From: Dokdonella sp.
GTDB taxonomy: Bacteria; Pseudomonadota; Gammaproteobacteria; Xanthomonadales; Rhodanobacteraceae
Direction of reading: 5' to 3'
DNA: 64,000 nt
NCBI GenBank assembly: GCA_016712865.1
Contig: JADJQH010000001.1
Coordinates: 124,001 to 188,000, forward strand
A program made the translations under genes and the position numbers. This document shows positions 9,013-24,879 of this stretch, piece after piece. Numbering within the stretch: position 1 is the first letter of the stretch; the number at the start of each line of letters is the position of its first letter. Below the pieces are notes generated by a model. It made no database searches, had not been told where the DNA came from, and saw nothing but the letters and a program-made list of their open reading frames with translations.

Positions 9013-9489
9013 TCAACGAGCGTGAGACGAGTCGACGAACTGCCTGAGCGAGGATGCGGCAGCGGCCCGTATCTTGTTCCTGAGCAGCGGCGTCCAGCCA
9101 AGCAGCACCCCGGGCAGCCCCAGCGCCTGGCGCGACCAGCGCCAGAACGCGAACTGATCCGATTGCTCCAGAATCAGCCCCGATTGCATGCGAAACGTGG
9201 AGTGCACGATGTTGTGCACTGGACGTGACGTGGACGAGAAGATGTACCAGGCTTGCCAGGTGGCACTGCCGTGGTCGTCCCGGCACTGGATGTCTGAAGA
9301 CTCCACGCGCAGATCCCTGCCGCGCTTGCACAGCATTCGCCACATCGCGCCGACGTCGCTGCCACGAAGGGTGAACACCGGGTCAGTGAATTGCGCATCC
9401 GCGTGGTAACAAGCGGCCATGGTCTCGCCGTCGCGCGCGCTGAATGCCCGGAAAAACCGCTCCAGCGTCTCGCGGTTGCGCTCAGGCAC
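9013..9489 (-). CDS. SnoaL-like / NTF2-like protein
   Basis: A small protein of about 158 residues with the alpha+beta cone-fold pattern of the SnoaL/NTF2 superfamily: RETLERFFRAFSARDGETMAACYHADAQFTDPVF, then WQAWYIFSSTSRPVHNIVHS. These folds act as isomerases, hydrolases or binding modules, and the sequence does not show which. The start is uncertain: GTG at 9489 (GGGAT upstream) or TTG at 9507. It lies 42 bp after the decaheme-LVIVD gene on the same strand and may be the last gene of the redox cluster, or just a neighbour. No signal peptide is seen. Confidence 0.65.
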   Translation of the reverse strand: MPERNRETLERFFRAFSARDGETMAACYHADAQFTDPVFTLRGSDVGAMWRMLCKRGRDLRVESSDIQCRDDHGSATWQAWYIFSSTSRPVHNIVHSTFRMQSGLILEQSDQFAFWRWSRQALGLPGVLLGWTPLLRNKIRAAAASSLRQFVDSSHAR

Positions 9490-9531
9490 CGTTGCGTGAT
9501 CCCGCAATGCAGCGAATGATCATCGCAACGG

Positions 9532-12500
9532 TCAGGGCAGGGAGGCCGGGGGCGCCTTGCCGGCGCTGGCCTTCTTGCCCTTGGCATCCACCGAAGCGGA
9601 GACTCCGCTGGCCAGCCCGGTTGCGTTGTCGTCAACGCTGTTGCTGACGTACCAGGGCGTGCCGTCCTTCTTGAGGAACAGCCGGCGCATTTCTTCGAGG
9701 TTGAATGGGCGTGAACCGATTCGCCCAAACACCGCAATCTGGTGGCCGGTCTCATCGACCGCGCGATCACGCTCGAGGCCTCGCGACAAAGAGAGCGCCG
9801 GCTTGCGCGTTGGATACCATGCAATCAGCTGTGGCTTCGGGTCGGGGGTGAATCCGTAGAACTTCGGTTGCGACTCGGGCGACGTGAGTTGCAGAACCTT
9901 GAGTCCATTGGCACCGTCGGCAACATAGGCAAACAGGGACGCATTGGTGGTGCCGACGATGATGTCGCGCGCATCGGTGATCTTGCCGCCTGCATTGAAC
10001 ATCTGGTACAGGCTTGGCCGCTCCGGATTGGTCACGTCGACGATGGCAATGCCCTCTGCGCCATTTGCCACGTAGGCAAAGGTGCGGGCAATGTGCAGTT
10101 TTTGCGGGTCACCGAGCGCCAGGGTGGCGCCGGCAACCTCGCGCGCCTGTTCCGGATGCGTCACGTCCACGACGTGCAAGCCATCGGCGGCCGTCACGAA
10201 CAGGTAGCGGAACTGCACCTGGCTGGCTCGCGCATTGGCGATGGGAATCGTGGTCAGCAGACGGGGCTGCAACGGATCATCAAGATCGAGCACGACGATG
10301 CCGGCATCGGCGGCGATGTAGAACGTGGTGCCGGCAATGGCCAGATGCCGCGCACCATTGAGAACGCCGTTCTCGTTCCAGGTCATCGCCCGTTCAAGGA
10401 AATTGTTGCGCGGTTCGCGGTCGCCCAGCGTGGCGATATCCGTTGCGATCAGGCCTTCCTCGGCATCGGTGATGAATGCGTACTTGTAGACCGGATGCGT
10501 GGCCTGTTCACGATTCTTGTTGCGCATCAGCTCGCCTTCATTGCGCTCGGGTATCACGGGTTGCGTGGTTGCCAGCGCGATGCAGGTGGCATTGGCGGAG
10601 CGAATGGACGTGTCTTGGCCAAGCGGAGAGGCCGGAGCGGTGATGATCTTCTGCGAGATGCCCTTGTTGCCGATGCTGGCAACGTCGTAGATGTGGGCTC
10701 CACGTTCCCCTTCGGCGGCAAACAGGTATTCACCCCGCAGCTGGATGCAGCCGACGTTGCCTGCGGTATGGCGTTCCGCGTGCTTGAGCTTTTGATCGTT
10801 CTTTTCATGCTCTGCAAACCAGTCGGGATAGGCATAGCGTTGCAGGTAGCTGCCGATGACGGCTTGCGGCTCATCCCATTCGGTGACCTGGACGGCATTG
10901 ATCTCGCCGTCTCCGCCCACCCATGCATGCCAACCGACGAAATCGATGAACTTGGTGCCGAGCAACAACAACTGGGCCATGATCGCGTTGTTGTCGTTGT
11001 TCTTCGACAGATGGCAATCCTCGCAATCCTTGGTTTCGGTCTTGCGTTCGGTATGCGGGTAATGCGGTGCGAATGCCTGCGAGCTGTAGCCGGAAGCGGC
11101 AACGGGCGGCTGCTGGACGTAGATCTTCTCTCGATTGATGTTGGTCGACGACAGCACGAGCGCTGAGGAGGAGCGCACCGGGGCGATCTTGGAGCCCTTG
11201 ATGTCTCCGTGCTTGCCAAGGAAGAACATCTGGTCGCGGGCGACCTGTGGGTTGTAGGTTGCGAAGTTGCGGGTGGCGCCGCCTTCGTACTTGTGGCGCT
11301 CGGTCTTCCAGTTGGCCTGGATCGGCAGGTGGCAGCCACCGCAACTGGTGGTCCATGAGGTGTGGCAGGCGTAGCACAGCATCTTGTCTTCGCTGTGCGC
11401 GCGCTGGTCCATGGGCACATCGGCGCCCCAACGCAGCTGGTCAGTGTCCATCGACATGGTGTGTGCGCGGGTGGCCTTGGCGTTGTAGCTGCCGGAGACG
11501 GGATCCGCGGTGTCCTTGACCAGCGACATGGTCCATTCCAGGTCGGGTGTGACGGCCGAACGCTGGATCAGCTTGTTGCCGACCCATTCGAAACGCTTCT
11601 TGCCATCCGGGTTGCGGATAAGCAGGAGGTCGGTTCCGAACTTGGATGCGGCAGGGCCGGAAGTCTTGAGGGTGGGCAGCGCATCGGCGGTGCCGTGGCA
11701 ATCCTGGCACTGGATCTCGACCGCGCCCATCACCTCGGCCTTGAGATAGCCATTGCCGTGGTTGTCCTGCGCAAAATGGCAGTCAACGCATTGCATGCCG
11801 ACATCGACATGGATCGAGGACATGTGCACGCCCTTCTTCCACTTGTCCGGATCGTTGTCGGAAATCGAATGGCCATCCTTGTCCAGCAGGGTTCCCTTGC
11901 GGTCGCGCTTGTAGATGGCGCGGAAATTCCACCCATGGCCGTGATAGTCGGCAAACTGGGTGTCCTTCAACTGCGGGTTGAGCAGGGAAACATCCTTGGA
12001 GAACTCGGGATCCCCCCACTTGCCTCGGATCGCCGCCTCTTCCGGATTGCGGTCCAGGATCTTGCGCATCTTCTCGGCATCCGGATATTGCTGCTTTTCC
12101 GGCCACATGAAGGGTGCATCCGACTCGTAATCCCACATCGTGTAGCCGAGCATCGTGTTGATGAACATGTTCGGCTGATGCATGTGGCAGATCATGCATT
12201 GGCTGGTCGGGATGCGGCGCGTGAACTCGTGCTTGAGTGGATGACCGGGCTCGTCCTTGGGAATGGTCGGATCGACCTGCTGACTGAGGCCGGTGTTGCC
12301 GAATTTCGCGTAGATGGCTGAGTGGCGCGGGTCGCGATCATTGGCGTAGACAACGTGGCAGGCGCTGCAACCGGAAGAACGGAAGTCGCCGGGATTGTCG
12401 TTGGTGCCCAGCATCCAGATGAACGGGTCGTTGAGGCGCGTCTTGGTGATGTTGAGCACCGGGATGGATACCCGCAGCGCCGTACCGGGACCACGGAACG

Positions 12501-13338
12501 ACTGGCGGATATCGGGTCGGCCCGGTTCCTCCAGCTTCTGGATCTGGCCGAATTCGTTGGGCAGGCCGATTTCCGTAAACACGTTGTTCACGTTGCGACC
12601 GCCGCGCTCGAAGATGCGGAACACGTCACCTGGCGGAACCGTTTCCCACGCCGGCAGCGGATTGATCTTCGGCAATACGCCGTGCGCGTCCATGGTGGCG
12701 TCGTTGGGGATGCCATTGTCGGCCGTGGTGCCGACGCCATCACGGTTGTAGGTCTCGCCGAGAATGGAATGCTTGAAGGGCAGGATGCCGTTGTTGTACG
12801 CCGCTGCGCCCCAGAACATTGCGGCATTGGCCATCAGGCTCTTTTCATTGGCCTGGATCAGTGGCAGGTGGCAGGCGCCGCAGGCTTCACGAGCGATGCG
12901 CAGGTCGCCCGGATTGATGAAGCGGACGAACTCCGGCGACTCCTTGAGCAGCCAGGTATAGCTGCGCACCGGGTTTGCGCTGGATTCCCAGCGTGAGGGA
13001 TAGCTTGGCAGCACGTGTGCCTGATCGATGGCATTTCGATAGGCCAGCCCTTCGTGATCCCCGGCGGGAGCGGTGACGCTGGCGTTGCCGCCATGACAGT
13101 CGGTGCAGCCAAGGACCACGGCTGGACTTGCGTGCATGGTCTTGCGATCGCTGTCGGTGTGGCAGCTGATGCAGCCTTGCGACTTCTCGTCGGCCTGTGC
13201 CCAGGTCTGGAACGCCGGGGCATTCGGGGCGGTGACGTATTCGCGTTCGACACGCTCTTCCTTTCCGCCGGAAGCCTGTGCCATTCCCGACCAAAGCAGG
13301 AAGCTGGCGAATGCGATGGCAGCGATGGATCGCTTCAT
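9532..13338 (-). CDS. Secreted decaheme cytochrome c with C-terminal LVIVD-type beta-propeller
   Basis: 1268 residues. A Sec signal peptide (MKRSIAAIAFASFLLW, cleaved near AQA) directs export. Ten CXXCH heme motifs are present: CISCH (56), CTDCH (78), CGACH (153), then CSACH, CMICH, CVDCH, CQDCH, CYACH, CGGCH and CEDCH near residue 775. From about 845 to 1160 the protein has LVIVD-like repeats (AGIVVLDLDDPLQPRLL, DGLHVVDVTHPEQ, EGIAIVDVTNPERP, NGLKVLQLTSPES), expected to form a propeller. Such proteins carry electrons in the periplasm or at the cell surface. The gene starts 17 bp after the outer-membrane barrel gene and is surely cotranscribed with it. The electron acceptor is unknown. Confidence 0.88.
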   Translation of the reverse strand: MKRSIAAIAFASFLLWSGMAQASGGKEERVEREYVTAPNAPAFQTWAQADEKSQGCISCHTDSDRKTMHASPAVVLGCTDCHGGNASVTAPAGDHEGLAYRNAIDQAHVLPSYPSRWESSANPVRSYTWLLKESPEFVRFINPGDLRIAREACGACHLPLIQANEKSLMANAAMFWGAAAYNNGILPFKHSILGETYNRDGVGTTADNGIPNDATMDAHGVLPKINPLPAWETVPPGDVFRIFERGGRNVNNVFTEIGLPNEFGQIQKLEEPGRPDIRQSFRGPGTALRVSIPVLNITKTRLNDPFIWMLGTNDNPGDFRSSGCSACHVVYANDRDPRHSAIYAKFGNTGLSQQVDPTIPKDEPGHPLKHEFTRRIPTSQCMICHMHQPNMFINTMLGYTMWDYESDAPFMWPEKQQYPDAEKMRKILDRNPEEAAIRGKWGDPEFSKDVSLLNPQLKDTQFADYHGHGWNFRAIYKRDRKGTLLDKDGHSISDNDPDKWKKGVHMSSIHVDVGMQCVDCHFAQDNHGNGYLKAEVMGAVEIQCQDCHGTADALPTLKTSGPAASKFGTDLLLIRNPDGKKRFEWVGNKLIQRSAVTPDLEWTMSLVKDTADPVSGSYNAKATRAHTMSMDTDQLRWGADVPMDQRAHSEDKMLCYACHTSWTTSCGGCHLPIQANWKTERHKYEGGATRNFATYNPQVARDQMFFLGKHGDIKGSKIAPVRSSSALVLSSTNINREKIYVQQPPVAASGYSSQAFAPHYPHTERKTETKDCEDCHLSKNNDNNAIMAQLLLLGTKFIDFVGWHAWVGGDGEINAVQVTEWDEPQAVIGSYLQRYAYPDWFAEHEKNDQKLKHAERHTAGNVGCIQLRGEYLFAAEGERGAHIYDVASIGNKGISQKIITAPASPLGQDTSIRSANATCIALATTQPVIPERNEGELMRNKNREQATHPVYKYAFITDAEEGLIATDIATLGDREPRNNFLERAMTWNENGVLNGARHLAIAGTTFYIAADAGIVVLDLDDPLQPRLLTTIPIANARASQVQFRYLFVTAADGLHVVDVTHPEQAREVAGATLALGDPQKLHIARTFAYVANGAEGIAIVDVTNPERPSLYQMFNAGGKITDARDIIVGTTNASLFAYVADGANGLKVLQLTSPESQPKFYGFTPDPKPQLIAWYPTRKPALSLSRGLERDRAVDETGHQIAVFGRIGSRPFNLEEMRRLFLKKDGTPWYVSNSVDDNATGLASGVSASVDAKGKKASAGKAPPASLP

Positions 13339-13354
13339 GGTCCTGCGCGCCTCT

Positions 13355-15175
13355 TCAGTACGTGAGTATCAGATTGCCAAGCACCGAATAATATTTGGTG
13401 TCTTCGCCGAACAGATCCTTGAGTCCCTGGCCTGGCAGCAGGGTGGCCGCAGAGACGCGCAGGATCATGTTCTGGGTGTTGTATGGCCGCCAGATCCAGG
13501 CCACGGATACATCGGTACCGATATTGCGACCGACATCCGCAGTGGCACGCGCCGCCTTCAGGATTTCCGTATCGGAAAACCAGAGCTCGTTGATGTTGGT
13601 GGAGATTCGCGACTGCGGCGTCACATCGAAATCCGCGCCCACGCCGAGCAACTGGATGCCGGGATTGTCGAAATTGGATTGACCCTGTTCCTTGGATGAG
13701 CGCAGGTTGGCGAGCAGGCCGTTGCGGCTGGCCAGGGCCACGCCACCGCCGCCGATCAAGGGGACGTTCTGGCGAATCCAGTAACTGGTGTCTGCGCCAG
13801 CGAAGATCGGATTCTCGAAAATGGAATCAAATCCCGTGGAGCGGTCATCGTATGGATCCTCGTCACCACTGGCCCAGGCCAACGAACCGCGCCAACGGAT
13901 CCAGTCGAAATCCATGGAGGCTTCCGCAGCGAGGAATCCTGCCCGGATATCGGTGTCGGCCTGCACGAACACGCCCGGTTTCTGCTTGCCGAATGCGGCA
14001 TAGGCAGACAGCGTCAGGTTGAGTCGGCCGATGTGCCCGTCGCCGTTGTAGCCCAGATAGGCGACGTCATAGGTGCGTGGAAATTCGCGACCGATGGCCG
14101 CCGGACGCTGGATGAACCCGTTGGAGTCGTAGAAGCTGGAATCCTCGCGGTTGCGGTTGTAGGCAAATATCGCCTGCGAAACGAAACCGGTGTACGGAAA
14201 GTCCTGGCGATACAGGTTGGCGATGAAAACGTCGTCATCACGCAGGCCCTTGGTCACGTCGTTCAGGCCGGAGTTGATGTCCTTTTCCAGGCGACGGAAC
14301 AGGGCGAGGTTGTATTGCCAGTGGTTGTTGTCGCGATTGCCGAAAAAGCGCACGCCGAGCTGGTTGTCCTGGAACAGGAATCCGCGGAAGTCCGAGGAGA
14401 ACGGCTGGATGCCGACTCGAACCTCGTCGACGTCGTAACGGGCGGACGCCGTGCGGAGGTCCTTGGTGTAGAACAGCTCCTGCACGCCGATAAATCCATC
14501 GTCGCGCTCCGTTCCCAGGCGCGGGTCCAGATTCAGCGCGCGGACCTCTTCGGTTCTTACGCGGTTGTAGTTGATGGCCAGGGTGGCCTTGAACTCGTCA
14601 TCCGGTGGCTTGAATGCCGTATTGCCCTTGTACAAGAGGAACGAGGTGATGGCGGTCTGCGCAAAGATGATCTGGTCGGTCTGGCCGAGCACGTCGTTGG
14701 AGCCGGGCTGGTCTCCGGCCTGCGGACCCACCGGTGTTGGAATGCCGCGCGGTTCGAGCAGAGTGTCGGAGATTCCGGTCATCGAGAAGAACCATTCGTC
14801 TTCGTTGATCGGCTTGTCGCCCTTGAGCACGTTCTGGTTGTACGGGTCGTACCACGGTGTATTGACGCCGAGGGCTTCCATGATTCGCCAGCGATCAGGA
14901 ACGGGCACGAATTCACCCACCTGATCGACCGGGGCCGGATTCAAGCCATCGGGATTCTGCTCGACGAACATCGGCAGCGGTTCCGGCGGATGCCCAGGGC
15001 GGCGCCGGGGAATCTGCGACGCGTAGGGGTCATAGGTGGGCGCAGGGATGATTCCGATCATCTGCAGCCACGCCATCGGCACGCTGCTGGATTGTGCAGA
15101 TGCACCCGAGGCGGCAGAAGCGGCTGCCGCTGCCATGGCGAGGGTCAACAGACGGTGCTGGATGCCGATACGCAT
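13355..15175 (-). CDS. Predicted outer-membrane beta-barrel protein (porin-like)
   Basis: 606 residues. The signal peptide ends near ASGASAQ. The mature protein has a long proline-rich N-terminal segment, then alternating hydrophobic/polar strands rich in aromatics (ATLAINYNRVRTEE, LGVRFFGNRDNNHWQYNLAL, RGSLAWASGDEDPYD, RISTNINELWF) and a C-terminal strand ending ILTY, as in outer-membrane barrels. No heme motif is present. Lying between the lipoprotein gene (1 bp gap) and the decaheme gene (17 bp gap), it is a natural candidate for the sheath of a porin-cytochrome conduit. I infer this from context; I do not recognise a named porin family. Confidence 0.72.
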   Translation of the reverse strand: MRIGIQHRLLTLAMAAAAASAASGASAQSSSVPMAWLQMIGIIPAPTYDPYASQIPRRRPGHPPEPLPMFVEQNPDGLNPAPVDQVGEFVPVPDRWRIMEALGVNTPWYDPYNQNVLKGDKPINEDEWFFSMTGISDTLLEPRGIPTPVGPQAGDQPGSNDVLGQTDQIIFAQTAITSFLLYKGNTAFKPPDDEFKATLAINYNRVRTEEVRALNLDPRLGTERDDGFIGVQELFYTKDLRTASARYDVDEVRVGIQPFSSDFRGFLFQDNQLGVRFFGNRDNNHWQYNLALFRRLEKDINSGLNDVTKGLRDDDVFIANLYRQDFPYTGFVSQAIFAYNRNREDSSFYDSNGFIQRPAAIGREFPRTYDVAYLGYNGDGHIGRLNLTLSAYAAFGKQKPGVFVQADTDIRAGFLAAEASMDFDWIRWRGSLAWASGDEDPYDDRSTGFDSIFENPIFAGADTSYWIRQNVPLIGGGGVALASRNGLLANLRSSKEQGQSNFDNPGIQLLGVGADFDVTPQSRISTNINELWFSDTEILKAARATADVGRNIGTDVSVAWIWRPYNTQNMILRVSAATLLPGQGLKDLFGEDTKYYSVLGNLILTY

Positions 15176-15176
15176 G

Positions 15177-17198
15177 TCACTTGCCCTCGCACACGTATTG
15201 CTCGGTGGAATTCAGGAACGGCGCCTGTGGACACTGCACATAGAGCAGGCGGGCGCCTTGCGGCACGAGGGTGTCTGCGCGGATTCCCGTCGGCGCATTG
15301 CCGATGGCGCCGCCCAGGGTGATCCCTGCATTGTGCAAGCCGAGGAAGGCAACCATGTCGCTCTGGTCGGTGCCATCGCCGGATGCGCCGATGCCGCCGA
15401 CCAGTACGCCGTTTCGATAGATGGGCACGCTGCCACCAAACAGGGAAATGCCGTTGGCGATCCGGTTCACGCCTGTGCAACTGGTTGGCACGTCGGTGAA
15501 GGCGGGCAGGTCGGTCCCGTCCAGATTCACGGTCAAGCCGCTTTGCTGGAGATAGTAGATAAGGAACGCGACAGTCTGCTGATAAACGATATCGAGTTCC
15601 AGGCCCGTCTTGAACACGCTCCAGCTTTCAATGGACGGGCTCAAGGGGCCGGGCGGACGGCCTGGCACACCATCCGGATAGAACGGACGCGAGAGGTTGC
15701 CGATGGCCCGGTTCGAGTAGGCAATGGCGCCATCGGCGAGTGCGCTGGCCTGTGGCAGGAACGCCTGGAATGCGCCGACGTAATCGGCGGGATCGCTGGC
15801 TGCTCCGGACGTGAAGGAGATGCGGCCGTTGGCAACATCCAGCGAACCGGTCACGTAGTTGATGGGTGCGATCGAGCCGATATCCGCAGCCGCATAGTCG
15901 CCCGAGAAGAATGCCGCCGTGCGCGCCTTCTGCGTGGTCACGTCCACGGCATCAAGCAGGGAATCGCGCGAACGCACGATGCCCAGCACCGCGCCATTGG
16001 TATCGACCACGACGACGGTTTCGCCGGCCGGAGAACCGAAGGGGCGGCGCACCTGGGCGCGCGTGCGATTGGCAACGGCGAGCGACTCGCGCAGCAGGGT
16101 GAGGACTTCATTGGCCGTCAGTGCATTGGGACCGTCGGTGCCATCGCGTGGAGGAAAGCGGTTGGTGCCGGTTCCGTCATCGACGACGAATGCATCCAGG
16201 CCAGGGAAATTGACCGGGTCGGGACGGATTCCGGATTCGACCTGGCCAAAGGCCAGGCCACGCACGATGGTGCCGGTGAAAAACAGGGGGACGGGAATGA
16301 CGCCGCCGGTTTCCGGGCCGAGGCTCGCGAACGTGGGCGCAGCGGCCGGATCCAGAGTGAGTCCGGAAAAATCGACATCCGAATAGCGCAGGCTCAAACC
16401 GCCGGCAGTGATCTGGTTGGCGCGACGATCCGCAGGTGCGGCAAATCCGTAGCTTCCGGCAATCGCAATGAACTCATCGATGTTGCGGTCGATGTCGGCG
16501 GTGCTGGTGTCCACGCCATAGGTTTCATCGGCTGCGACACCGACCGCTCCAACCGGAACACCGGCCTTGTAAAGCGGCACGCCGCCCGGATCGGCAGCCA
16601 GGCCGATTCCCGAACGATGCGGCCCTGCGTCGGGCCCAATGCCATTGAATCGCCTGCTCAGATCCGAGCAGGGCAGCTGTGAAAATTGCACGCCAAACAA
16701 GGGGCCGGACGGTGCCGTGATGTCACCGGGGGCAAAGTGCTCCTGGGCGACTTGTCCCGCGGTTCTTGACGTGAAGGCATTGCCTTCGGATGAAAAGTAG
16801 TCGGCCGTCAGCGCCTTGGCGATCGCCGTGAGTTCACTGGGCAAGGGAATCCCCTCCAGCCCGCCGACTATGCCGCGGCCGGAATTGACCAGTTGGGTCG
16901 GGGGGGCGCCCGTCATGCGATAGGCTCCCAGGACATTTCCGACCCGATCCGTAACCACGATGGTCGCGGGCTTCGACAAGGCCCGCGCCTCGTTCACTGC
17001 CTGCGCAATGACCTTTTGAACATCGTCCACGGTGAGGAAGGAACTGGCGTTTGCGCAGGAGCCTGCGCAGCCTGAGTCGCCGTTTCCTGTTGGCGGTGGA
17101 TTGTTCGTGCCGACATCGCTGTCGGTGTTGCTGCCTCCGCCGCATGCAAACAGCATGCACAGTGACGTGAGCAGTGCGCCCAACCTGATGATCCGCAT
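15177..17198 (-). CDS. Lipoprotein with two GlcG/HbpS-type (DUF336) domains
   Basis: 673 residues. The start MRIIRLGALLTSLCMLFACGGG gives a classic lipobox, and a GGGAGGGAGG site lies directly before ATG 17198; the longer open frame upstream is not homologous. Domain one starts FLTVDDVQKVIAQAVNEARAL and continues TIVVTDRVGNVLGAYRM. Domain two starts near LTANEVLTLLRESLAVANRTRAQV with VVVVDTNGAVLGIVRS. Each ends with a GxPlYkxGvxVGaxGxsG segment (GVPLYKAGVPVGAVGVA; GSVPIYRNGVLVGGIGASG). Family members such as HbpS bind heme or redox cofactors extracellularly, but this copy has no CXXCH. It is cotranscribed with the barrel gene, and its role in electron transfer is inference. Confidence 0.78.
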   Translation of the reverse strand: MRIIRLGALLTSLCMLFACGGGSNTDSDVGTNNPPPTGNGDSGCAGSCANASSFLTVDDVQKVIAQAVNEARALSKPATIVVTDRVGNVLGAYRMTGAPPTQLVNSGRGIVGGLEGIPLPSELTAIAKALTADYFSSEGNAFTSRTAGQVAQEHFAPGDITAPSGPLFGVQFSQLPCSDLSRRFNGIGPDAGPHRSGIGLAADPGGVPLYKAGVPVGAVGVAADETYGVDTSTADIDRNIDEFIAIAGSYGFAAPADRRANQITAGGLSLRYSDVDFSGLTLDPAAAPTFASLGPETGGVIPVPLFFTGTIVRGLAFGQVESGIRPDPVNFPGLDAFVVDDGTGTNRFPPRDGTDGPNALTANEVLTLLRESLAVANRTRAQVRRPFGSPAGETVVVVDTNGAVLGIVRSRDSLLDAVDVTTQKARTAAFFSGDYAAADIGSIAPINYVTGSLDVANGRISFTSGAASDPADYVGAFQAFLPQASALADGAIAYSNRAIGNLSRPFYPDGVPGRPPGPLSPSIESWSVFKTGLELDIVYQQTVAFLIYYLQQSGLTVNLDGTDLPAFTDVPTSCTGVNRIANGISLFGGSVPIYRNGVLVGGIGASGDGTDQSDMVAFLGLHNAGITLGGAIGNAPTGIRADTLVPQGARLLYVQCPQAPFLNSTEQYVCEGK

Positions 17199-17344
17199 CC
17201 TCCCTCCCGTTGTCAGAGCTGTGCCTGCCTTCGGAACCCGTCGTGGATCATAGCTCAGAGAACCGAAGTCGCCTATTCCCTGTTGCAATTCTCGCTGGCA
17301 CAGCAGGCGATGCAGCCAGACATCGGGACTGTCCAGTGCGCGAC

Positions 17345-19027
17345 TCAGTTGGCACCGGGCTTGTCGAGTGTCAGGGTCTTCGACTGGTGATAGGCGTGGC
17401 AAGCGATACAGGTGCTGGCGACCTTGTCGCTGGCGTGTGCACCCGCATGGCATTGACGGCAGTTGTCGATACCCGGGATGAGCAGGTCATTCGATGCCTG
17501 TGAACGCTCGGCGCCAGCATGGCAGTCGGCGCACTTCATGGTTTCGTGGCGGGCATGGCTGAAGCGCGCATCGGCGTACCAGATTCCGGAAACCCGGACC
17601 GGCGCCACGTTCCAGTCGGATTCCCCGGATGGTGGGGAAATCGAGTGGCAGGTGACGCATGCCTTGCCGGTAAAGAGCGTACGGGCTGCTTCGCGGGCGC
17701 GATCGCGTGCCCAGGACAATGCCTCCACCTGTTCCTGGCGTGACATCGGTGGCGAACCCGGACGGCGTCGCTCCTGCACGATGGTGGGCGCGCGCGCATC
17801 GGCATAGCCACCTTCGAGTCCGCGCCGGGCGTAGAACTCGTCGAGCGTATAGGTGACGGCGGCAACATCGGCGTGCGGAACCTCCCGCCCAGGGGCAAGC
17901 GTGTCGAAACCCAACTGGTGACATTCGTGGCACATGCTCTCGAAGGCGATCGGTTGCATGGCGGCTCCCGCAGCATCGGGCAGATGGCAGTTGGCGCAGG
18001 TCAGGGTCTTGCGGCCATTGGGGGTGTTGAGGCCGTCTGCCTTCAGGTGTTTCTCGTGGTTGAACTTGAGGCCCGAGTTTTCCTTGAGGCTGGCGGTCCA
18101 GGTCATCGACTTGGGCATGAATTCGCCATTCGCCGCCCAGCCGGGCAGGTTGATGTGGAACTCGGGATGCGCCTTGCCGAAATCCGAAATATCCGCGATC
18201 TGGCTGGCACCGGCCGTGCGCGACTTGAGGTCTGAATGGCAATCCGAGCACAGCGACTGCTTGCGGCTGACCATGCCACGCTCGCCATTGTGATCCTGGT
18301 GGCAGGTTCCGCAACGTGCGTCGCCAAGCTCGGGAATGTTGAACCGGGCCGGGTCCGCATGGGCCTTGGTTTTCACGTGACACGAGGTACAGGCGTTGTC
18401 ACGCACCATGAGGAAGGCGTGCTGATGGCATCGCTTGCAGTCGGTGGCGAAGAACCGATGTGCGGCATCGACTTCTCCGGGATTCCAGAACGAGGTGCTG
18501 GGTAGCGGCGAATAGCGCAATACGGTGTTGAAGCCGGGTATGACGTGGGTCGATGCCGGCAGGATCAGGCCCAATGCCAGGACCAGGATGAAACCGGTCC
18601 AGGATGGCCAGCGCTTGGCAATCCAGGTCTGGTCCAGGCTGGTTGGCTTGCTGCGACTGGAGCGGATGGCGGCCTGTTCACTCTTGTCGATTGTGGAAAC
18701 TTCAACGGCGGCATCGAACTCGCCGCGCGCATCAAGCAGGGTCAGGCGCGTGGAGCCCAGCTCGATGACTGCGCCCGTGCCCACGGCCTTTGTGTAGGTG
18801 AGTTCGCCATTGACGCGAATGCCGGCGACGATGAGCGACTCGACGCGATACTGGCCATTGCCCAGGGCCGTGACGCTGGCATGGTTGAGCGCGGCGCGAA
18901 GGTCGGGCAGGAAGATGGCCTGGTCCGCCGCACGTCCAATGGTGAGGATTTCGCCGAAGTGGATATCGTCCTCGTAGGAAATCGAACCCTTGCCCTTTTT
19001 CAGGACGCGACGAATCAGCCAGCGCAT
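17345..19027 (-). CDS. FHA-like domain joined through one membrane helix to a decaheme cytochrome c
   Basis: 560 residues. Residues 1-105 resemble an FHA domain (ILTIGRAADQAIFLPD, LNHASV, then IRVNGELTYTKAVGTGAVIELG). A single transmembrane helix spans about 143-158, so the FHA part should be cytoplasmic. The periplasmic part has ten CXXCH motifs: CKRCH (197), CTSCH, CGTCH, CSDCH, CANCH, CHECH, CVTCH, CADCH, CRQCH and CIACH. FHA domains bind phosphothreonine, so this protein could link a phosphorylation signal to periplasmic electron flow. AGGAGG sits 8 nt before ATG 19027. A 110-bp palindromic repeat begins 16 nt upstream of the start codon, between this gene and the membrane-protein gene. 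Confidence 0.88.
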   Translation of the reverse strand: MRWLIRRVLKKGKGSISYEDDIHFGEILTIGRAADQAIFLPDLRAALNHASVTALGNGQYRVESLIVAGIRVNGELTYTKAVGTGAVIELGSTRLTLLDARGEFDAAVEVSTIDKSEQAAIRSSRSKPTSLDQTWIAKRWPSWTGFILVLALGLILPASTHVIPGFNTVLRYSPLPSTSFWNPGEVDAAHRFFATDCKRCHQHAFLMVRDNACTSCHVKTKAHADPARFNIPELGDARCGTCHQDHNGERGMVSRKQSLCSDCHSDLKSRTAGASQIADISDFGKAHPEFHINLPGWAANGEFMPKSMTWTASLKENSGLKFNHEKHLKADGLNTPNGRKTLTCANCHLPDAAGAAMQPIAFESMCHECHQLGFDTLAPGREVPHADVAAVTYTLDEFYARRGLEGGYADARAPTIVQERRRPGSPPMSRQEQVEALSWARDRAREAARTLFTGKACVTCHSISPPSGESDWNVAPVRVSGIWYADARFSHARHETMKCADCHAGAERSQASNDLLIPGIDNCRQCHAGAHASDKVASTCIACHAYHQSKTLTLDKPGAN

Positions 19028-19043
19028 GGGCCTGGCCTCCTAA

Positions 19044-19153
19044 GGAAGGTCTGAACAAGTAATGTCGCGAGCAAGCTCGCTCCCACCATTGCATGATTTT
19101 GTGGGAGCGAGCTTGCTCGCGACGAATGAGTTCCGTACTTGTTCAGAGCTTCC
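19044..19153. repeat. 110-bp palindromic MITE/REP-like element, copy 1
   Basis: The outer 18-bp inverted repeats read GGAAGGTCTGAACAAGTA and the complement of GGAAGCTCTGAACAAGTA. Inside them a near-perfect palindrome (GCGAGCAAGCTCGCTCCCAC and its complement) flanks a short AT-rich loop. A second 110-bp copy lies at 42390-42499 with about four differences. The core resembles REP sequences of pseudomonads. No transposase is encoded, so this is a non-autonomous element. It lies in the leader of the FHA-cytochrome gene. Confidence 0.85.
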
Positions 19154-19198
19154 CTGACGCGTGAACATGATTGCCGGGTGCGGGTCATGGCTTGCGGG

Positions 19199-20104
19199 TC
19201 ACCAGTAGAAGAACACGGACACGATGTGGCCAATGAGGGCCGCGAGCAGGGTGACCGACAATGGAACGTGGATGTACAGCCAGATTTCCATGATTGCCTG
19301 GTACTGGATGTCGCGGGCAACGCGGGTCGCCAGCGACCGCTTGCGCGAGAGCATGTCGATGAGTTTGCGCAGGGCCTCGGCTTGCTTGTCATCGGCACGG
19401 CCGGCAAGGAAATCGACCATCAGGAGCATGGTCTGGCCGGCCTGCATGGGGGCAGGCGCCGCACCGAGCTGCGTTTCGCGTTGTTCCATGGCACTGCGGA
19501 TCTTGGCGATGGCGATGTCCGAGCCATCGCGTGCGCGCAACTGGGTCATCACGCCGCCGCCGAGTTTGGTGTTTTCGATCGAACGCAGCACCACGGCATG
19601 GATTTCCGGTGCGATGCCGTCCGCCAGGTTCAAGGCGTTCTGGTCAATCTCGCCGATCTCCTCGAGCATCGCATCGCGGGTGGCGCTTTCGCGGTTGCGC
19701 GTCATCAGGGTCGGATAGCGAAGGTAGGCATACACGCCGAAGAAGCCGCTGAAAATCACGATCAGCATGAGCACGAGGGCAAAGGTGTGCAGGTTCCAGC
19801 CAAACTGGAAGCCGCAATGCAGCAGGGTGATGAGGATCAGGCTGGTGCCAAGGTAGATGTGCGCGGACAGCCAACCGCGCGTGGTGCCCATGTTGGTGGC
19901 GTAGCTGCGCTTGCGGATGCCGAACAGCATCAGCCAGACGATCAGCAAAGCGGCAATGGTGCCGAGGGTGTAGCCAAGCCAGGTGCCGCCATTGGGGGCA
20001 ACGGCGGGATCGTGCCAGACATACAAGGCAATCGAGACGACGCAAAGCACGATCGATATCCACAGATAGCGTGACTTTGCGTAAGTGAGGATGGAATCGT
20101 GCAC
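19199..20104 (-). CDS. Integral membrane protein, probable b-type cytochrome
   Basis: 301 residues with five hydrophobic helices: about 13-29, 42-63, 80-100, 106-128 and 274-301. Histidines within or at the ends of helices (H82, H96, H106, H279, H293) are spaced as in di-heme b cytochromes, but I do not recognise a named family. A soluble stretch of about 140 residues lies between helices 4 and 5. In context (flavoprotein with Fe-S motifs upstream, membrane-anchored cytochrome downstream) it is the natural quinone- or heme-bearing link across the inner membrane. The start is ATG 20104. Confidence 0.65.
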   Translation of the reverse strand: MHDSILTYAKSRYLWISIVLCVVSIALYVWHDPAVAPNGGTWLGYTLGTIAALLIVWLMLFGIRKRSYATNMGTTRGWLSAHIYLGTSLILITLLHCGFQFGWNLHTFALVLMLIVIFSGFFGVYAYLRYPTLMTRNRESATRDAMLEEIGEIDQNALNLADGIAPEIHAVVLRSIENTKLGGGVMTQLRARDGSDIAIAKIRSAMEQRETQLGAAPAPMQAGQTMLLMVDFLAGRADDKQAEALRKLIDMLSRKRSLATRVARDIQYQAIMEIWLYIHVPLSVTLLAALIGHIVSVFFYW

Positions 20105-20195
20105 GGACTACTCCCGCACTGCCGGGTGAGGGAATCGGACCGGTTTCGATCCGCTGCGGTTTTCCGTGCGGGTCTGGTGCACAGTCATAGGTGGA

Positions 20196-22604
20196 TCAAC
20201 GCCGCGACTGGGCATAGGCGGGGAATTCCTCGGGGCTGATGCGGATGGCAGCGCCGGTCGGGCACGCGCGCACGCATGCGGCGCCACCGGCCTGGTCCTT
20301 GCACATGTCGCATTTGACGGCCTTCTTCAACTTGGGGTCGTGTTCCGCGTCCGGATCGTAGGGCGCTTCACCGGGGCCTGGGCCGCGCCCGAACAGCAAC
20401 CACTGGATCAATCCGGGCTTCTTGGGCGGCTTGCTCGCCATGTGGATCACGCCATACGGACAGTTGCGCACGCAGTTGCCGCAGCCGATGCAGTTGTCGG
20501 CGATGAACACCTCGCCATTGGGTGCCCTGCGGATTGCATCGGGTGGACAGTCCTTCATGCAATGGGGGTGTTCGCAATGGCGGCAGGAGGTGGGTACATG
20601 CACGTTGGCGAACGTCGGGCCCGCTTCGCGATCCAGTCGCGAGGTGCCGCCGTGGGTTTCCGCACAGGCTTTTTCGCAGTTGTCGCAGCGAACGCAGAGC
20701 GATTCGTCGATCAGCAGGATGTCGGTTGCTTCTCCGGCGCCCTGCGCCATGAGGAAGGAGATGATGTCTCCGCCGCCGGGCATGGCCTGCATGGACAGGT
20801 TGGCTGCGGTGCGATCCTTGAATTCCTTCTGCAGGCGCAGGCGCAGGGCAGGGATGCGGTTGAGCAGCTTCTTGAAGGCCGCGCCGTCGAGCTGGATGGT
20901 CTCCGTGGCGATGGCAGCGCGCGCTGTCGCTGATCGTTTGGCTTCACCCATCAGGGCCATTTCACCAACGTAATTGCCTGCCGCGACATAGGTCAGCACG
21001 ATGTCCTTGCCGCCGATGTTCCGCGAGATGGTCAGCGAGCCAAGGCGGACCAAGTGCAGGCAATCGCCCTCATCGCCTTCCTGGAATACCAGCTCTCCTG
21101 CCTTGTATCGCTTGAGGCTTGCGCCGCTGGCCAGGTCCTGCAACTGCTCGGGACTTGCCTCGGCCGCGAATCGCGAACGGATGGCGCGGATGATGAAGGC
21201 GCGATCGATTTCCGCTTTGACGGCTTCAACCGAGCTGATGAGCCGGTTCATTGACCTGCGTGGTGTTTCCACCAGGATGCAGTTGGGTCCGGCCTTGACG
21301 GTGGCGGTGCGGCGACGACCGGAGATCAGGCTCATTTCACCGAAGAACTCGCCACGCCTGAGGATCACCGGGGCCGGCTTGTCCTCGACCACGATGTGCA
21401 CTTCGCCTTCCACGATCGAGTAGAAGCTGTTGGTGTAGTCGTTGCGCTCGAAGATGATCTCGCCTTGCGCCGGGGTGCGGATGTCGGAATCGAGCATGAA
21501 TTCGCGCATCTGCAGCGGTGTGATGTGCGAGAGCAGGGGAACGTTGCGCTGGATCTGTGCAAGGGTCTGTTCGACCGTGCCGATGCCCTTGAGGTTGTTG
21601 AACTTGGCCTTGAGCAGGGGAGCATCGGCGGGCTCCACCGGATTGCCGGTGATGTACTCGACGACTTCATAGCCCTGGTTCATGGCCTGCTTGATGAGCG
21701 GGTAGCCACCCAGGGCACCCACGATATACAGGCCCTTCACGTTGGACTCGTATTGGGCGCTGATTGCGGGAACGGATGCCGGATCCTTGCTCGGGAACAC
21801 CACGCCGCAGCCTTCGACGAAACCGCGCGGGGCAGTGGCCCCGAGTCGCGCGATGACGCGATCAAGCAGGATCTGCGCTCGCCCGTTGGAGGTGTTCAGG
21901 ATCATGCGGCCGGGCTTGCGGCCCGCGCTCAGGGCCTCGACCTTTTCCGGGGCGGAGTTGTAGTAGCACTCGATGACACCGTCGTCGATGGCCTTGAGGA
22001 TGGCCAGCTCGTTGCCTTTCTTGGCGCGGGCAAATTCGTCTTTGCGATTGATGATGATGACGTTGTTTTGCCTGGCCAGGGCCACGGCGTTTTCAATTGC
22101 GGCATCGCCGGCACCCACGACGACAATGGTTTCGCCCTCGTAGGCCTCGGGGTCGTCGAGTTGGTACTGCACGAAAGGGAGGTCTTCCCCGGGCACCCCC
22201 AGCTTGCGCAGGTTTCCTTGCAGGCCGATGCCCAGCACGACCGCTTCGGCCTCCACGGTTTTTCCGTTCTGGCATTTCAACTCGAAAATGCCATCGGCAC
22301 GCCGCTGGATTGCCGAGACTTCATGCTGGTGGCGCACATTCACCTTCAGGCGTGCGGTTGACTCGTCCCACTTGCCGAGAATCGTCTCGCGCAGACCCGC
22401 TTCGAATGGAATGGGAGAGCGCAGAGGCAGGATCCCCGGCTCATCCATCACGTACTTGCCCTTCTGGTACAGGAAAATCGTGTTGGACAAATGCGATTCC
22501 GCTTCCAGCAGGACATGGGAAATGCTGCGCTCGGCCGCACGCGCGGCAGCGGACAGGCCTCCGGGTCCGGAGCCGACGATGGCGATCTTGAAACGCTCAG
22601 CCAT
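20196..22604 (-). CDS. FAD/NAD(P) oxidoreductase fused to two cNMP-binding domains and four 4Fe-4S motifs
   Basis: 802 residues. Residues 1-320 form a thioredoxin-reductase-like flavoprotein (IVGSGPGGLSAAARAAE at the FAD site, VVVGAGDAAIENAVAL at the NAD(P) site). There is no obvious CXXC redox pair, so it resembles YpdA/TrxB-like reductases. Two cyclic-nucleotide-binding domains follow, with cassettes GEMSLISGRRRTATV and GEMALMGEAKRSATA. The C-terminal 160 residues have four clusters of ferredoxin cysteines (CVRCDNCEKAC, CRHCEHPHCMKDCP, CIGCGNCVRNCP, CDMCKDQAGGAACVRACP). The start ATG 22604 has GGGAGG upstream. It is probably the cytoplasmic electron entry point of the cluster, possibly gated by a cyclic nucleotide. 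Whether the domains still bind cNMP cannot be told here. Confidence 0.88.
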   Translation of the reverse strand: MAERFKIAIVGSGPGGLSAAARAAERSISHVLLEAESHLSNTIFLYQKGKYVMDEPGILPLRSPIPFEAGLRETILGKWDESTARLKVNVRHQHEVSAIQRRADGIFELKCQNGKTVEAEAVVLGIGLQGNLRKLGVPGEDLPFVQYQLDDPEAYEGETIVVVGAGDAAIENAVALARQNNVIIINRKDEFARAKKGNELAILKAIDDGVIECYYNSAPEKVEALSAGRKPGRMILNTSNGRAQILLDRVIARLGATAPRGFVEGCGVVFPSKDPASVPAISAQYESNVKGLYIVGALGGYPLIKQAMNQGYEVVEYITGNPVEPADAPLLKAKFNNLKGIGTVEQTLAQIQRNVPLLSHITPLQMREFMLDSDIRTPAQGEIIFERNDYTNSFYSIVEGEVHIVVEDKPAPVILRRGEFFGEMSLISGRRRTATVKAGPNCILVETPRRSMNRLISSVEAVKAEIDRAFIIRAIRSRFAAEASPEQLQDLASGASLKRYKAGELVFQEGDEGDCLHLVRLGSLTISRNIGGKDIVLTYVAAGNYVGEMALMGEAKRSATARAAIATETIQLDGAAFKKLLNRIPALRLRLQKEFKDRTAANLSMQAMPGGGDIISFLMAQGAGEATDILLIDESLCVRCDNCEKACAETHGGTSRLDREAGPTFANVHVPTSCRHCEHPHCMKDCPPDAIRRAPNGEVFIADNCIGCGNCVRNCPYGVIHMASKPPKKPGLIQWLLFGRGPGPGEAPYDPDAEHDPKLKKAVKCDMCKDQAGGAACVRACPTGAAIRISPEEFPAYAQSRR

Positions 22605-22648
22605 GAAAATCCTCCCCTGCCTGCCGATCATACCGAAGCGCATGCATG

Positions 22649-22719: not shown

Positions 22720-24879
22720 ATGCCGCAACCGCAAGCCATTGCATCGATCGATGCCTGTGTCGAGCGCATTGTCGAAGCCTGCGGTGAACACATCGTGCTG
22801 GCCACGCCGCTTGGATTGGGCAAGCCGAATCGGCTGATCAATGCGTTGTATCGACGCATCGCCAGGGATCCGGCGCGCAGGTTGACCATCCACACCGCGC
22901 TTTCGCTGGATCCGCCTTCACCTTCCGATGACATCGAACGTCGCTTTGCCCAACCTTTCCTTGAGCGACAGTTTGGCCTCGACTACCCACGACTCGAATA
23001 CGTGGCCGCCATGCAGGCAGACAGTTTGCCGGCGAATGTGCACGTGCACGAGTTCTACTTCCAGTCGGGCTCCATGTTGCAGTCGGCCACTGCGCAGCGC
23101 GACTACGTCAGCCTGAACTACACGCAGGTTGCACGTGATGTTGCCGATTCCGGGGTCAATGTGGTGGTGCAGGCGGTGGCACGGCGCGTGCGCGATGGAT
23201 CCGCCAGTTACAGTCTTTCCTGCAACCCGGATGTCACCCTTGATTTGCTCGACTGCATGGCGAGGGCCGGCATGCCCAAGCCGCTGGTCATCGGCGTCGT
23301 GCATGCGGAACTACCTTTCCTTGCTGGCGACGCGGACATCTCGGACGGGTGCGGGGTGCTGGATTTCGTGCTTGAGGATGCAAGCTGTTCGCATCGCTTG
23401 TTCGCGCTGCCGCGCGAGGATGTCGATGACGTCGAATATGCGATCGGCTTGCATGCAAGCACCCTGGTTGCCGATGGTGGCACCCTGCAGATTGGAATCG
23501 GAGCGCTTTCCGATGCCCTGGTACAGGCCTTGATCCTGAGGCATCAGCGCAACGCGGACTATGGGGAGATCCTGGATCGTCTGGAAGGAAGCAACCAGAG
23601 AACGCCGCTGGCGCAGCGCATTGGGGGTGACGCGGCGTTCCAGCGCGGCCTGTACGGATCCAGCGAGATGGTCATGGATGGATTCATGCATCTGCGAAAG
23701 GCCGGCATCCTGAGTCGCCTGGTGTTTGACGATGAACCGTTGCAACGCCTGCTTGATGACGAACGGATTGGTTTGACGCTGCGTGAAGGCGATGCGGCGA
23801 CCTTGCGTCACGCAGGGTACTTGCCAAGAGTCCTCGACCAAACGGGCCTCGATCGCATGCGTCGGTTTGGAATCTTGCCCGAGGGGAGTCGATTGCGAGG
23901 TGAGCACATTCATGTCGGCATGGATGTCACGCTGCGCAATGATTTCGATGATCCGCAATCCCTGAAGACGCTCGGCGAGGCGATCAACGGCAGGACGCTG
24001 TGCGGTGGGCGCTATCTGCAGGGCGGGTTTTGCCTGGGTTCCTCGCTGCTGTACGAATGGCTGCGCAACCTCGATGGCAACGACTACGACGGCCTGTCGA
24101 TGAACCGCATCTCCGAGGTCAACCGCTTGCAACGGGGGTACGAGGCGCTGGCGGCGCGCCAGCGCAGGAAGGCGCGCTTTTTCAATACCTGCATGATGGC
24201 CACGCCGTTGGGTGCGGCCGTTTCCGATGCGCTCGAGGATGGCCGCGTGGTCAGTGGCGTCGGTGGGCAGTATGACTTTGTCAGTCTGGCCGGCCAGCTC
24301 GATGATGCCCGCTCGATCCTGATGCTGCGTGCCACACGTATTGTCAAGGGTCGACTGGAATCCAACATCCGCTGGAACTATGGCCATGCAACGATTCCAC
24401 GCCACATGCGTGACATCTTCGTCAGCGAATACGGGATTGCCGACCTGCGCGGAAAGTCCGACCAGGAATGCGTTGTGGCGATGCTTGCCATCTGCGATGC
24501 GAAGTTCCAGGAGCAACTGGTCCAGCAAGCGGTCCGAGCCCGCAAGCTGCCGCCTGGTTTCCGGATTCCGCAAGCATGGAAACGAAATACGCGTGAAGAC
24601 CTTGCTGCACGCCTGGCTCTGTTTCGCGAGCGCGGCCTGTTGCCTGCCTATCCCTTCGGGAGTGATTTCAGTGCGCTGGAGTTGCGCTTGTTGCGGGTGC
24701 TCGGAACCCTCAAGCGTTCCATTGCAAGTCCCCGGCGCTGGCCTGGAGTCGTGGCAGCGCTGCTGGGCCCTGGGGCTCGCGATGCCGAGGCGCTTGCGCG
24801 CATGGGACTTTCGCGGCCACGTGGATGGCGGCAGCGCATCCTGGCCCGACTCCTCGGCGGTATGTTGAGGCAGCAGTGA
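22720..24879 (+). CDS. Acetyl-CoA hydrolase/transferase family protein
   Basis: 719 residues, longer than typical family members (about 500-630). N-terminal half: LATPLGLGKPNRLINALYRR, then GGTLQIGIGALSDALVQAL, a family hallmark. C-terminal half: LYGSSEMVMDGFMHL, NTCMMATPLGAAVSDALEDGRVVSGVGGQYDFV and EYGIADLRGKSDQE, which match CoA-transferase family I signatures. The enzyme probably moves CoA between short acids or hydrolyses acetyl-CoA. The exact reaction is not fixed, and an insertion of about 150 residues lies between the two halves. It is divergent from the redox cluster; a functional link is not evident. Confidence 0.82.
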   Translation: MPQPQAIASIDACVERIVEACGEHIVLATPLGLGKPNRLINALYRRIARDPARRLTIHTALSLDPPSPSDDIERRFAQPFLERQFGLDYPRLEYVAAMQADSLPANVHVHEFYFQSGSMLQSATAQRDYVSLNYTQVARDVADSGVNVVVQAVARRVRDGSASYSLSCNPDVTLDLLDCMARAGMPKPLVIGVVHAELPFLAGDADISDGCGVLDFVLEDASCSHRLFALPREDVDDVEYAIGLHASTLVADGGTLQIGIGALSDALVQALILRHQRNADYGEILDRLEGSNQRTPLAQRIGGDAAFQRGLYGSSEMVMDGFMHLRKAGILSRLVFDDEPLQRLLDDERIGLTLREGDAATLRHAGYLPRVLDQTGLDRMRRFGILPEGSRLRGEHIHVGMDVTLRNDFDDPQSLKTLGEAINGRTLCGGRYLQGGFCLGSSLLYEWLRNLDGNDYDGLSMNRISEVNRLQRGYEALAARQRRKARFFNTCMMATPLGAAVSDALEDGRVVSGVGGQYDFVSLAGQLDDARSILMLRATRIVKGRLESNIRWNYGHATIPRHMRDIFVSEYGIADLRGKSDQECVVAMLAICDAKFQEQLVQQAVRARKLPPGFRIPQAWKRNTREDLAARLALFRERGLLPAYPFGSDFSALELRLLRVLGTLKRSIASPRRWPGVVAALLGPGARDAEALARMGLSRPRGWRQRILARLLGGMLRQQ

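Follow-up and report, generated by a model that had tools for sequence, protein, structure and literature searches.

The question raised by positions 9013 to 22604 of the DNA shown above is what a row of minus-strand genes for a flavoprotein, a membrane protein, two ten-heme cytochromes and a likely outer-membrane barrel does in a Dokdonella sp. The stretch that was analysed, referred to here as the window, is 64,000 nucleotides long and lies on contig C1 (JADJQH010000001.1) of a genome of 3.75 Mb (assembly GCA_016712865.1). A first, sequence-only reading had seen here seven genes for a candidate electron conduit from the cytoplasm to the cell surface, with cyclic nucleotide and phosphothreonine inputs. 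We put the probability at roughly 0.55 that six of the genes (g1 to g6), together with a C554-like cytochrome encoded elsewhere in the genome, make up a single system that carries electrons across the cell envelope, which cyclic nucleotide monophosphates (cNMP) would probably gate. What the data show directly is which genes are present, which ligand residues are conserved, that the genes co-occur and that g1 is naturally fused to g2 in some genomes. The genes and their domains are as follows.

20196..22604, minus strand: g1, FAD/NAD(P)-binding flavoprotein of 802 amino acids (aa) that also carries two cNMP domains and a region of ferredoxin type (Pfam, conserved residues)
20805..21512 (approximate), minus strand: cNMP-binding domains of g1 (PF00027, E 1.7e-35, two stretches; phosphate-cassette residues)
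20262..20696, minus strand: ferredoxin-type region of g1 with 16 cluster cysteines (alignment; Fer4 families)
19199..20104, minus strand: g2, putative diheme b-type cytochrome of the membrane (PF01292, invariant His)
17345..19027, minus strand: g3, with an FHA-fold domain, one transmembrane-like segment and a decaheme c7-type domain
18725..18958, minus strand: FHA-fold domain of g3, without conserved phosphothreonine-contact residues
15177..17198, minus strand: g4, HbpS/GlcG-like lipoprotein of 673 aa (PF03928, E 4e-21)
13355..15175, minus strand: g5, likely outer-membrane beta-barrel, AlgE-like (structure model, Foldseek)
9532..13338, minus strand: g6, likely exported decaheme cytochrome with a C-terminal LVIVD beta-propeller
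9775..10929 (approximate), minus strand: beta-propeller region of g6 (structure model; LVIVD, PF08309)
9013..9507, minus strand: g7, SnoaL-like neighbour (SnoaL_2), found only in close relatives

Conservation of the gene set

All seven open reading frames lie where the sequence-only reading had placed them, and the tight spacing it described held up, the intergenic gaps recomputed from the coordinates being 91, 171, 146, 1, 16 and 24 bp from g1 to g7 (range 1-171 bp). Comparison with orthologues favours 22604 as the start of g1 (an alternative ATG lies at 22643), and g4 starts at 17198. The 20 CXXCH motifs counted earlier are divided between g3 (ten) and g6 (ten), with none in the other five genes; they are conserved in homologues and exceed what chance would give. 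A scan of the locus for promoters and terminators returned signals no commoner than those in shuffled sequences.

A search of genome contigs with the g6 alignment found 179 relatives. The 80 best (59-97% identity) define the g6-relative loci used throughout; their records carry alpha-, beta- and gammaproteobacterial titles, and one is titled Acidobacteria. Alignments were made from full-length homologues after removal of rows that contained stops, ran into a contig end or had an odd length (5/58 for g3 and 5/80 for g6). Once contig ends are allowed for, g5 is near g6 in 72/72 loci with more than 1 kb of upstream flank and g4 in 61/61; among loci with sufficient flank g3 and g2 are present in 55/59, g1 in 53/57, and all six genes together in 53/57. 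Forty-four of these 53 loci have the order and strand of the window, seven have g1 downstream of g6, and two (L119 and L126) have g1-g2-g3 reversed. The four loci without nearby g1-g3 (L058, L066, L067 and L112) have g3 elsewhere in the genome. Of 18 loci from the family to which the window belongs, 12 hold all six genes in order, the edge of the stretch truncating g1 in two of them and insertions separating g3 from g4 in some. Four others are truncated at a contig or stretch boundary, and L047 and L048 hold g4-g6 with no g1-g3 in the stretch. Two genomes of the same genus that lack the barrel (G004 and G086) also lack g3.

The seventh gene of the set first proposed did not keep its place. While g1-g6 are conserved together, the SnoaL-like g7 occurs in 7/80 g6-relative loci and 7/18 window-family loci, the latter being same-genus loci with long matches. 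We reject it as a component; it is probably not part of the system.

Another protein, absent from the sequence-only reading, does belong to the set. This is a C554-like pentaheme cytochrome (PF13435) with four CXXCH motifs and one CX4CH, whose gene lies within the stretch in 43/80 g6-relative loci, mostly just 3′ of g6. It stands beside g4 in 20/20 loci fetched from the 42 barrel genomes of a second family (G497), which is probably the Sphingomonadaceae, judging from the similar gene sets in records of Sphingobium and Sphingopyxis. The gene is not in the window, and the window genome carries one on contig C2 (321919-323238), where it adjoins a gene for a PP2C-type phosphatase, with ccmF about 5 kb away. 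In a sample of 147 genomes of the window family its distribution coincides with that of the barrel, both being present in the same 20 genomes from three genera and absent from the other 127; where both genes are on one contig they are never less than about 60 kb apart. The barrel count (20/147) is used here since the g6 count (29/147) is inflated by LVIVD-only matches; G014 is without g6 since its contig ends after g5. A PP2C gene is found beside the C554-like gene in 8/12 loci, one copy being truncated where the locus ends; in a ninth only the edge of the gene is visible, and three have none within 1.5 kb.

Two modules emerge, namely A (g1-g2-g3) and B (g4-g5-g6 with the C554-like pentaheme). 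In a phylum sample of 398 genomes the barrel gene g5 is present in 12, and the g2 profile (E≤0.001), run on a sample of equal size with the same genome handles, finds 39 genomes, scoring above 310 bits in the 12 barrel genomes, 219-237 bits in three and below 50 bits in 24. Three genomes of this sample (G147, G180 and G299, the last 76% complete) hold g1-g2-g3 together with no g4-g6 in the stretch and no g5 match, g1 and g2 being fused in two of them; module A therefore does not need module B. The G497 family has the barrel in 42/119 genomes, the holders representing 35 of 96 genera. Here g2 is found at 298 bits or more in 41/42 barrel genomes and in 0/77 others, two of the 77 matching at 33 bits or less; the sole barrel genome without a strong g2 is G564, with a completeness of 67%. 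Of the 41 genomes, 22 have g5 and g2 unlinked, the two genes being on different contigs in 9 and more than 15 kb apart in 13 (more than 0.4 Mb in eight), so that linkage alone cannot explain the pairing. The sequence-only reading had suggested co-occurrence of homologues as a check, and both the 53/57 six-gene loci and the pairing of unlinked modules bear it out.

Two independent operons might nevertheless be travelling together, one an inner-membrane NAD(P)H:cytochrome module and the other an unrelated outer-membrane transport cluster. The 3/398 genomes with module A and no g5 match would fit this, as would the histories of the modules: pairwise distances among g1, g2 and g3 give Spearman coefficients of 0.815-0.836 (49 sequences), and those between g6 and module A only 0.35-0.45, yet above all 200 permutations. 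Against it stand the unlinked modules, which pair in 41/42 versus 0/77 genomes, and the unlinked C554-like gene (20/20 versus 0/127), and we consider such a coincidence of operons very improbable.

Some further features of these loci deserve mention. A small conserved protein of about 149 aa is encoded between g3 and g4 in five loci (L070-L072, L079 and L099), the L071 copy having no Pfam match. Metagenome-assembled genome records whose titles name Bordetella parapertussis or Klebsiella pneumoniae (L090, L108, L111, L114 and L115) carry the cluster; these titles look like mislabelled environmental bins. A more distant set (L196:2794-8498) comprises a 4-heme cytochrome, a cNMP/Fe-S relative of g1, a g2-like protein and a protein with 10 CXXCH motifs. 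In the window, the gene divergent from g1 (22720-24879, plus strand) encodes a protein with an acetyl-CoA hydrolase/transferase C-terminal domain.

The proposed path from NAD(P)H to the periplasm

The Pfam matches of g1 are Pyr_redox, two cNMP_binding stretches and Fer4. Its four Fe-S cysteine sets, already noted from the window alone, correspond to 16 cysteines kept in 54/54 aligned full-length homologues, and NCBIfam models of the FDH-beta and DmsB type match the ferredoxin part. A thioredoxin-reductase or YpdA-type disulfide reductase was considered and rejected: the pyridine-nucleotide domain is without a redox-active CXXC and the YpdA model scores 106.5 bits against a cut-off of 339.9. 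No C..C motif of g1 starts before residue 637 (residue 650 if the longer frame is used), and the lack of a CXXC in the flavin half disfavours a thiol reductase.

The membrane protein g2 can be placed, by sequence comparison, in the cytochrome b561/FdnI superfamily (PF01292). The window protein itself scores under the cut-off (E 0.0024; 18.1 bits against 30.1), and the model matches 27/32 g2 homologues at E≤0.1 (best 1.8e-9). The heme-ligand-like histidines seen earlier proved to be invariant, H82, H96, H106, H279 and H293 being kept in 56/56 homologues. Four of them form the pairs H82/H96 and H279/H293, each with a spacing of 14, from which we surmise that g2 may hold two stacked b hemes. In two distant genomes g1 and g2 are fused into one protein (1,123 aa in L194 and 1,118 aa in L195), which argues for direct electron transfer from g1 to g2. 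The g3 of these fusion genomes has 9 CXXCH motifs.

Window g3 matches Cytochrome_C7, and its FHA match falls just under the cut-off; among 32 homologues Cytochrome_C7 is matched by 32, FHA by 18 and a YscD-type FHA model by 24. The ten CXXCH motifs are retained in 53/53 full-length g3 proteins of the g6-relative loci, and exactly ten further histidines are invariant in 54/54. With ten extra histidines for ten hemes, all of the hemes may be bis-His and serve pure electron transfer. Among the best solved relatives by sequence are, for the heme half, the multi-c7 cytochrome 3ov0, a Geobacter dodecaheme cytochrome, and, for the FHA half, the FHA protein GarA (6i2q); of the 41 chains listed, none spans the two halves in its best-matching stretch.

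Canonical phosphothreonine-binding FHA domains contact the phosphate through Arg, Ser and Asn. At the corresponding positions of g3 the Arg is found in 43/54 sequences, the Ser in 3/54 and the Asn in 5/54. The fold is present, but with its contact residues unconserved we reject phosphothreonine sensing by g3, and the second signalling input of the sequence-only reading is lost with it. Phospho-signalling could reach the system in some other way, since a PP2C gene is found in 10/80 g6-relative loci and a downstream double-FHA gene in 9/80.

The cyclic-nucleotide input fared better. CRP-type cyclic-nucleotide-binding domains with two phosphate-binding cassettes are predicted in g1, the Arg of both cassettes being present in 54/54 sequences. 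In alphaproteobacterial loci a gene for a CpdA/SpdA-like phosphodiesterase, a metallophosphoesterase, stands beside g3. Among the 20 fetched G497-family loci it lies between g6 and g3 in all eight that hold both modules, and also occurs in one without module A; it is found again in 5/13 loci of a further set. All of these matches are under the NCBIfam cut-offs and do not assign the phosphodiesterase substrate. From the residues and the neighbouring genes, cNMP binding by g1 is plausible.

In the mechanism that we propose, NAD(P)H would be oxidised in the cytosol by the flavin adenine dinucleotide (FAD) domain of g1, and electrons would pass through the four [4Fe-4S] clusters of g1 to the two b hemes of g2 in the membrane, and from these to the c hemes of g3, ten in number and all bis-His. 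A single helix would fix g3 in the inner membrane, leaving its FHA-fold domain in the cytosol, and cyclic nucleotides on g1 would probably gate the flow. This predicted path up to the periplasm (NAD(P)H - FAD - Fe-S - heme b - heme c) is well supported. Beyond it g6, the C554-like pentaheme, g4 and g5 would pass the electrons to an acceptor that lies at the outer membrane or outside it. Cofactor content, topology, the order and direction of transfer and the gating are what we infer here, and the crossing of the outer membrane is the weakest step.

Electrons might also flow inward, module B oxidising an extracellular or periplasmic donor and module A delivering to NAD(P)+ or the quinone pool. 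Multiheme chains are reversible, and g2 falls in a superfamily whose b561/FdnI-type members exchange electrons with quinone. Reduction of NAD(P)+, on the other hand, requires a donor of very low potential, and the named holders include organisms normally regarded as heterotrophs. We regard inward flow as improbable.

The outer module and the outer membrane

Of the module B proteins, g4 has a lipobox-like motif in 40/62 full-length homologues by a simple pattern. One genome of the same family carries two tandem g4 copies (L042:4889-9094). The product of g5 is likely to be an outer-membrane barrel and that of g6 an exported decaheme cytochrome. No Pfam or NCBIfam match was found for g5 at E≤0.1, and sequence profile searches of the PDB gave none for g6 (E≤0.01) and none for g5 (E≤1). 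The structure model of g5 (pLDDT 73, pTM 0.70) has 18 strands of at least 9 residues. Its best Foldseek match is AlgE (E 2.9e-17, TM 0.45/0.60, 10-13% identity in the AlgE rows), and the best 50 of 893 structural matches are AlgE, Occ/OprD, chitoporins, MOMP, general porins and one artificial protein.

In Pfam g6 matches LVIVD (PF08309) and Cytochrome_C7. Its ten CXXCH motifs are retained in 73/75 full-length proteins of the g6-relative loci, and thirteen histidines besides those of the motifs are kept in at least 99% of 76 sequences. A search of PHROGs gave one propeller match of unassigned function and nothing else. The propeller of g6 is well modelled and the heme half poorly, the mean pLDDT being 62; with this partly poor model, Foldseek listed propellers only, and the structure of the heme half was dropped as an argument.

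Several points weigh against the system as proposed, that just given on the heme half of g6 among them. As regards the outer membrane, the 18-strand barrel is smaller than MtrB, which has 26 strands, and judging from the model a decaheme domain could probably not fit inside it in the way that MtrA sits in MtrB; a lipobox-like motif is found in 0/75 g6 homologues; and many holders are probably aerobes, in which metal respiration is not expected. That electrons cross the outer membrane or reach the surface is unproven. As regards gating, the Glu of the g1 cassettes is kept in 52/54 and 47/54 sequences (replaced in 2 and 7), a strict cassette motif is missing from both domains in 17/53, and the CpdA/SpdA-like gene is present in only 9/20 G497-family loci and 2/80 g6-relative loci. 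As regards the pairing of the modules, the sampled genomes are related and the counts are not independent events; the three genomes with module A alone and the loose agreement between the histories of g6 and module A, both described above, belong here too.

The same evidence bears on a periplasmic reductase with its own porin. Here module A would feed periplasmic g6 and the C554-like protein, these two would reduce a soluble substrate that would enter or leave through g5, g4 would bind substrate or heme, and no electrons would cross the outer membrane. The AlgE-like fold of g5 and the lack of a lipobox-like motif in all 75 g6 proteins would suit such an enzyme. So would the best named match of g6, which is ExtM of the Geobacter extHIJKLMNOPQS selenite/tellurite cluster (E 5.9e-20), a cluster that includes the porin-like ExtI (PMC5877670). 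The match is weak, at 71.1 bits against the equivalog cut-off of 800 and with a best stretch of 52 residues, the Sphingobium orthologue giving 64 bits, and PMC5877670 describes ExtM as a 12-heme protein. Moreover, neither g6 nor the C554-like protein matches an enzyme family in Pfam, and the structures listed for g6 are propellers only. We hold a reductase of this kind to be a serious rival, though less likely than the proposed system.

If electrons do leave by the proposed system, many proteobacteria have a regulated outlet through which the NAD(P)H pool of the cytosol can discharge towards the outer envelope without involving quinones. Electron transfer to the outer envelope or out of the cell would then reach far past the metal-respiring bacteria. 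Many of the holders have been studied as aerobic pollutant degraders. The system would also explain a cytochrome family whose current annotation is hypothetical protein or some generic multiheme name; the gene set in Sphingobium is likewise annotated generically. Strains of Sphingobium and Pseudoteredinibacter are among the holders, which makes the system testable.

Comparison with known systems

No description of the gene cluster was met with in the titles and abstract openings of the literature searched, a body that leaves most subscription journals outside. The accessible portions of PMC13322032 and PMC10734462 (Uet and PCC3 conduits) deal with other clusters.

The sequence-only reading held that no part looks like MtrA, MtrB or MtrC. 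This stands for the window proteins, which reach no cut-off of models of these types. The DmsE/MtrA model (TIGR03508) gives 21.1 bits with g3 and 14.2 bits with g6 against a cut-off of 192.2. Pfam holds an MtrB_PioB model, and g5 has no model match at E≤0.1 and no MtrB among the best 50 of 893 structural matches; membership of MtrA and MtrB is thus rejected by the Pfam and NCBIfam tests. For the model of MtrC/MtrF domain II/IV (PF22113), g6 scores 17.7 bits against a cut-off of 30 and window g3 has no match. The statement does not extend to all relatives, as 4/32 g3 homologues match PF22113 (best E 9.8e-12), which we tentatively read as a likeness of heme segments.

The fold of g5 is shared with AlgE, and the six genes hold nothing alginate-related. 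The Geobacter ext cluster is similar in combining a porin-like protein, several multiheme cytochromes and a b-type cytochrome; by its score g6 does not qualify as an ExtM, and according to PMC5877670 the ext cluster also has a Rieske protein, a rhodanese and a proposed selenoprotein.

At the inner membrane the closest parallel is FdnH-FdnI. In formate dehydrogenase-N the b561-type cytochrome FdnI accompanies FdnH, a ferredoxin subunit with four clusters, and g1 and g2 likewise set a four-cluster ferredoxin-type part beside a putative diheme b membrane protein. Unlike that pair, g1 adds flavin and cNMP domains, the cluster has no molybdenum subunit, and the decaheme g3 follows g2.

With Mtr, Mto and Pio (MtrCAB, MtoAB and PioAB) the set shares adjacent genes for a barrel and a decaheme protein and, as proposed, a multiheme path across the envelope. 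It differs in its barrel, which is AlgE-like with 18 strands, and in its proposed input, which is NAD(P)H; the input of Mtr is quinol via CymA. We tentatively suggest, at somewhat less than even odds, that a separate class of conduit is widespread among proteobacteria, aerobic sphingomonads included, leading from NAD(P)H rather than quinol through an FHA-tethered decaheme cytochrome to a decaheme-propeller and AlgE-like terminus, gated by cNMP, and unrelated in barrel and architecture to Mtr, Omb/Ext and Cyc2.

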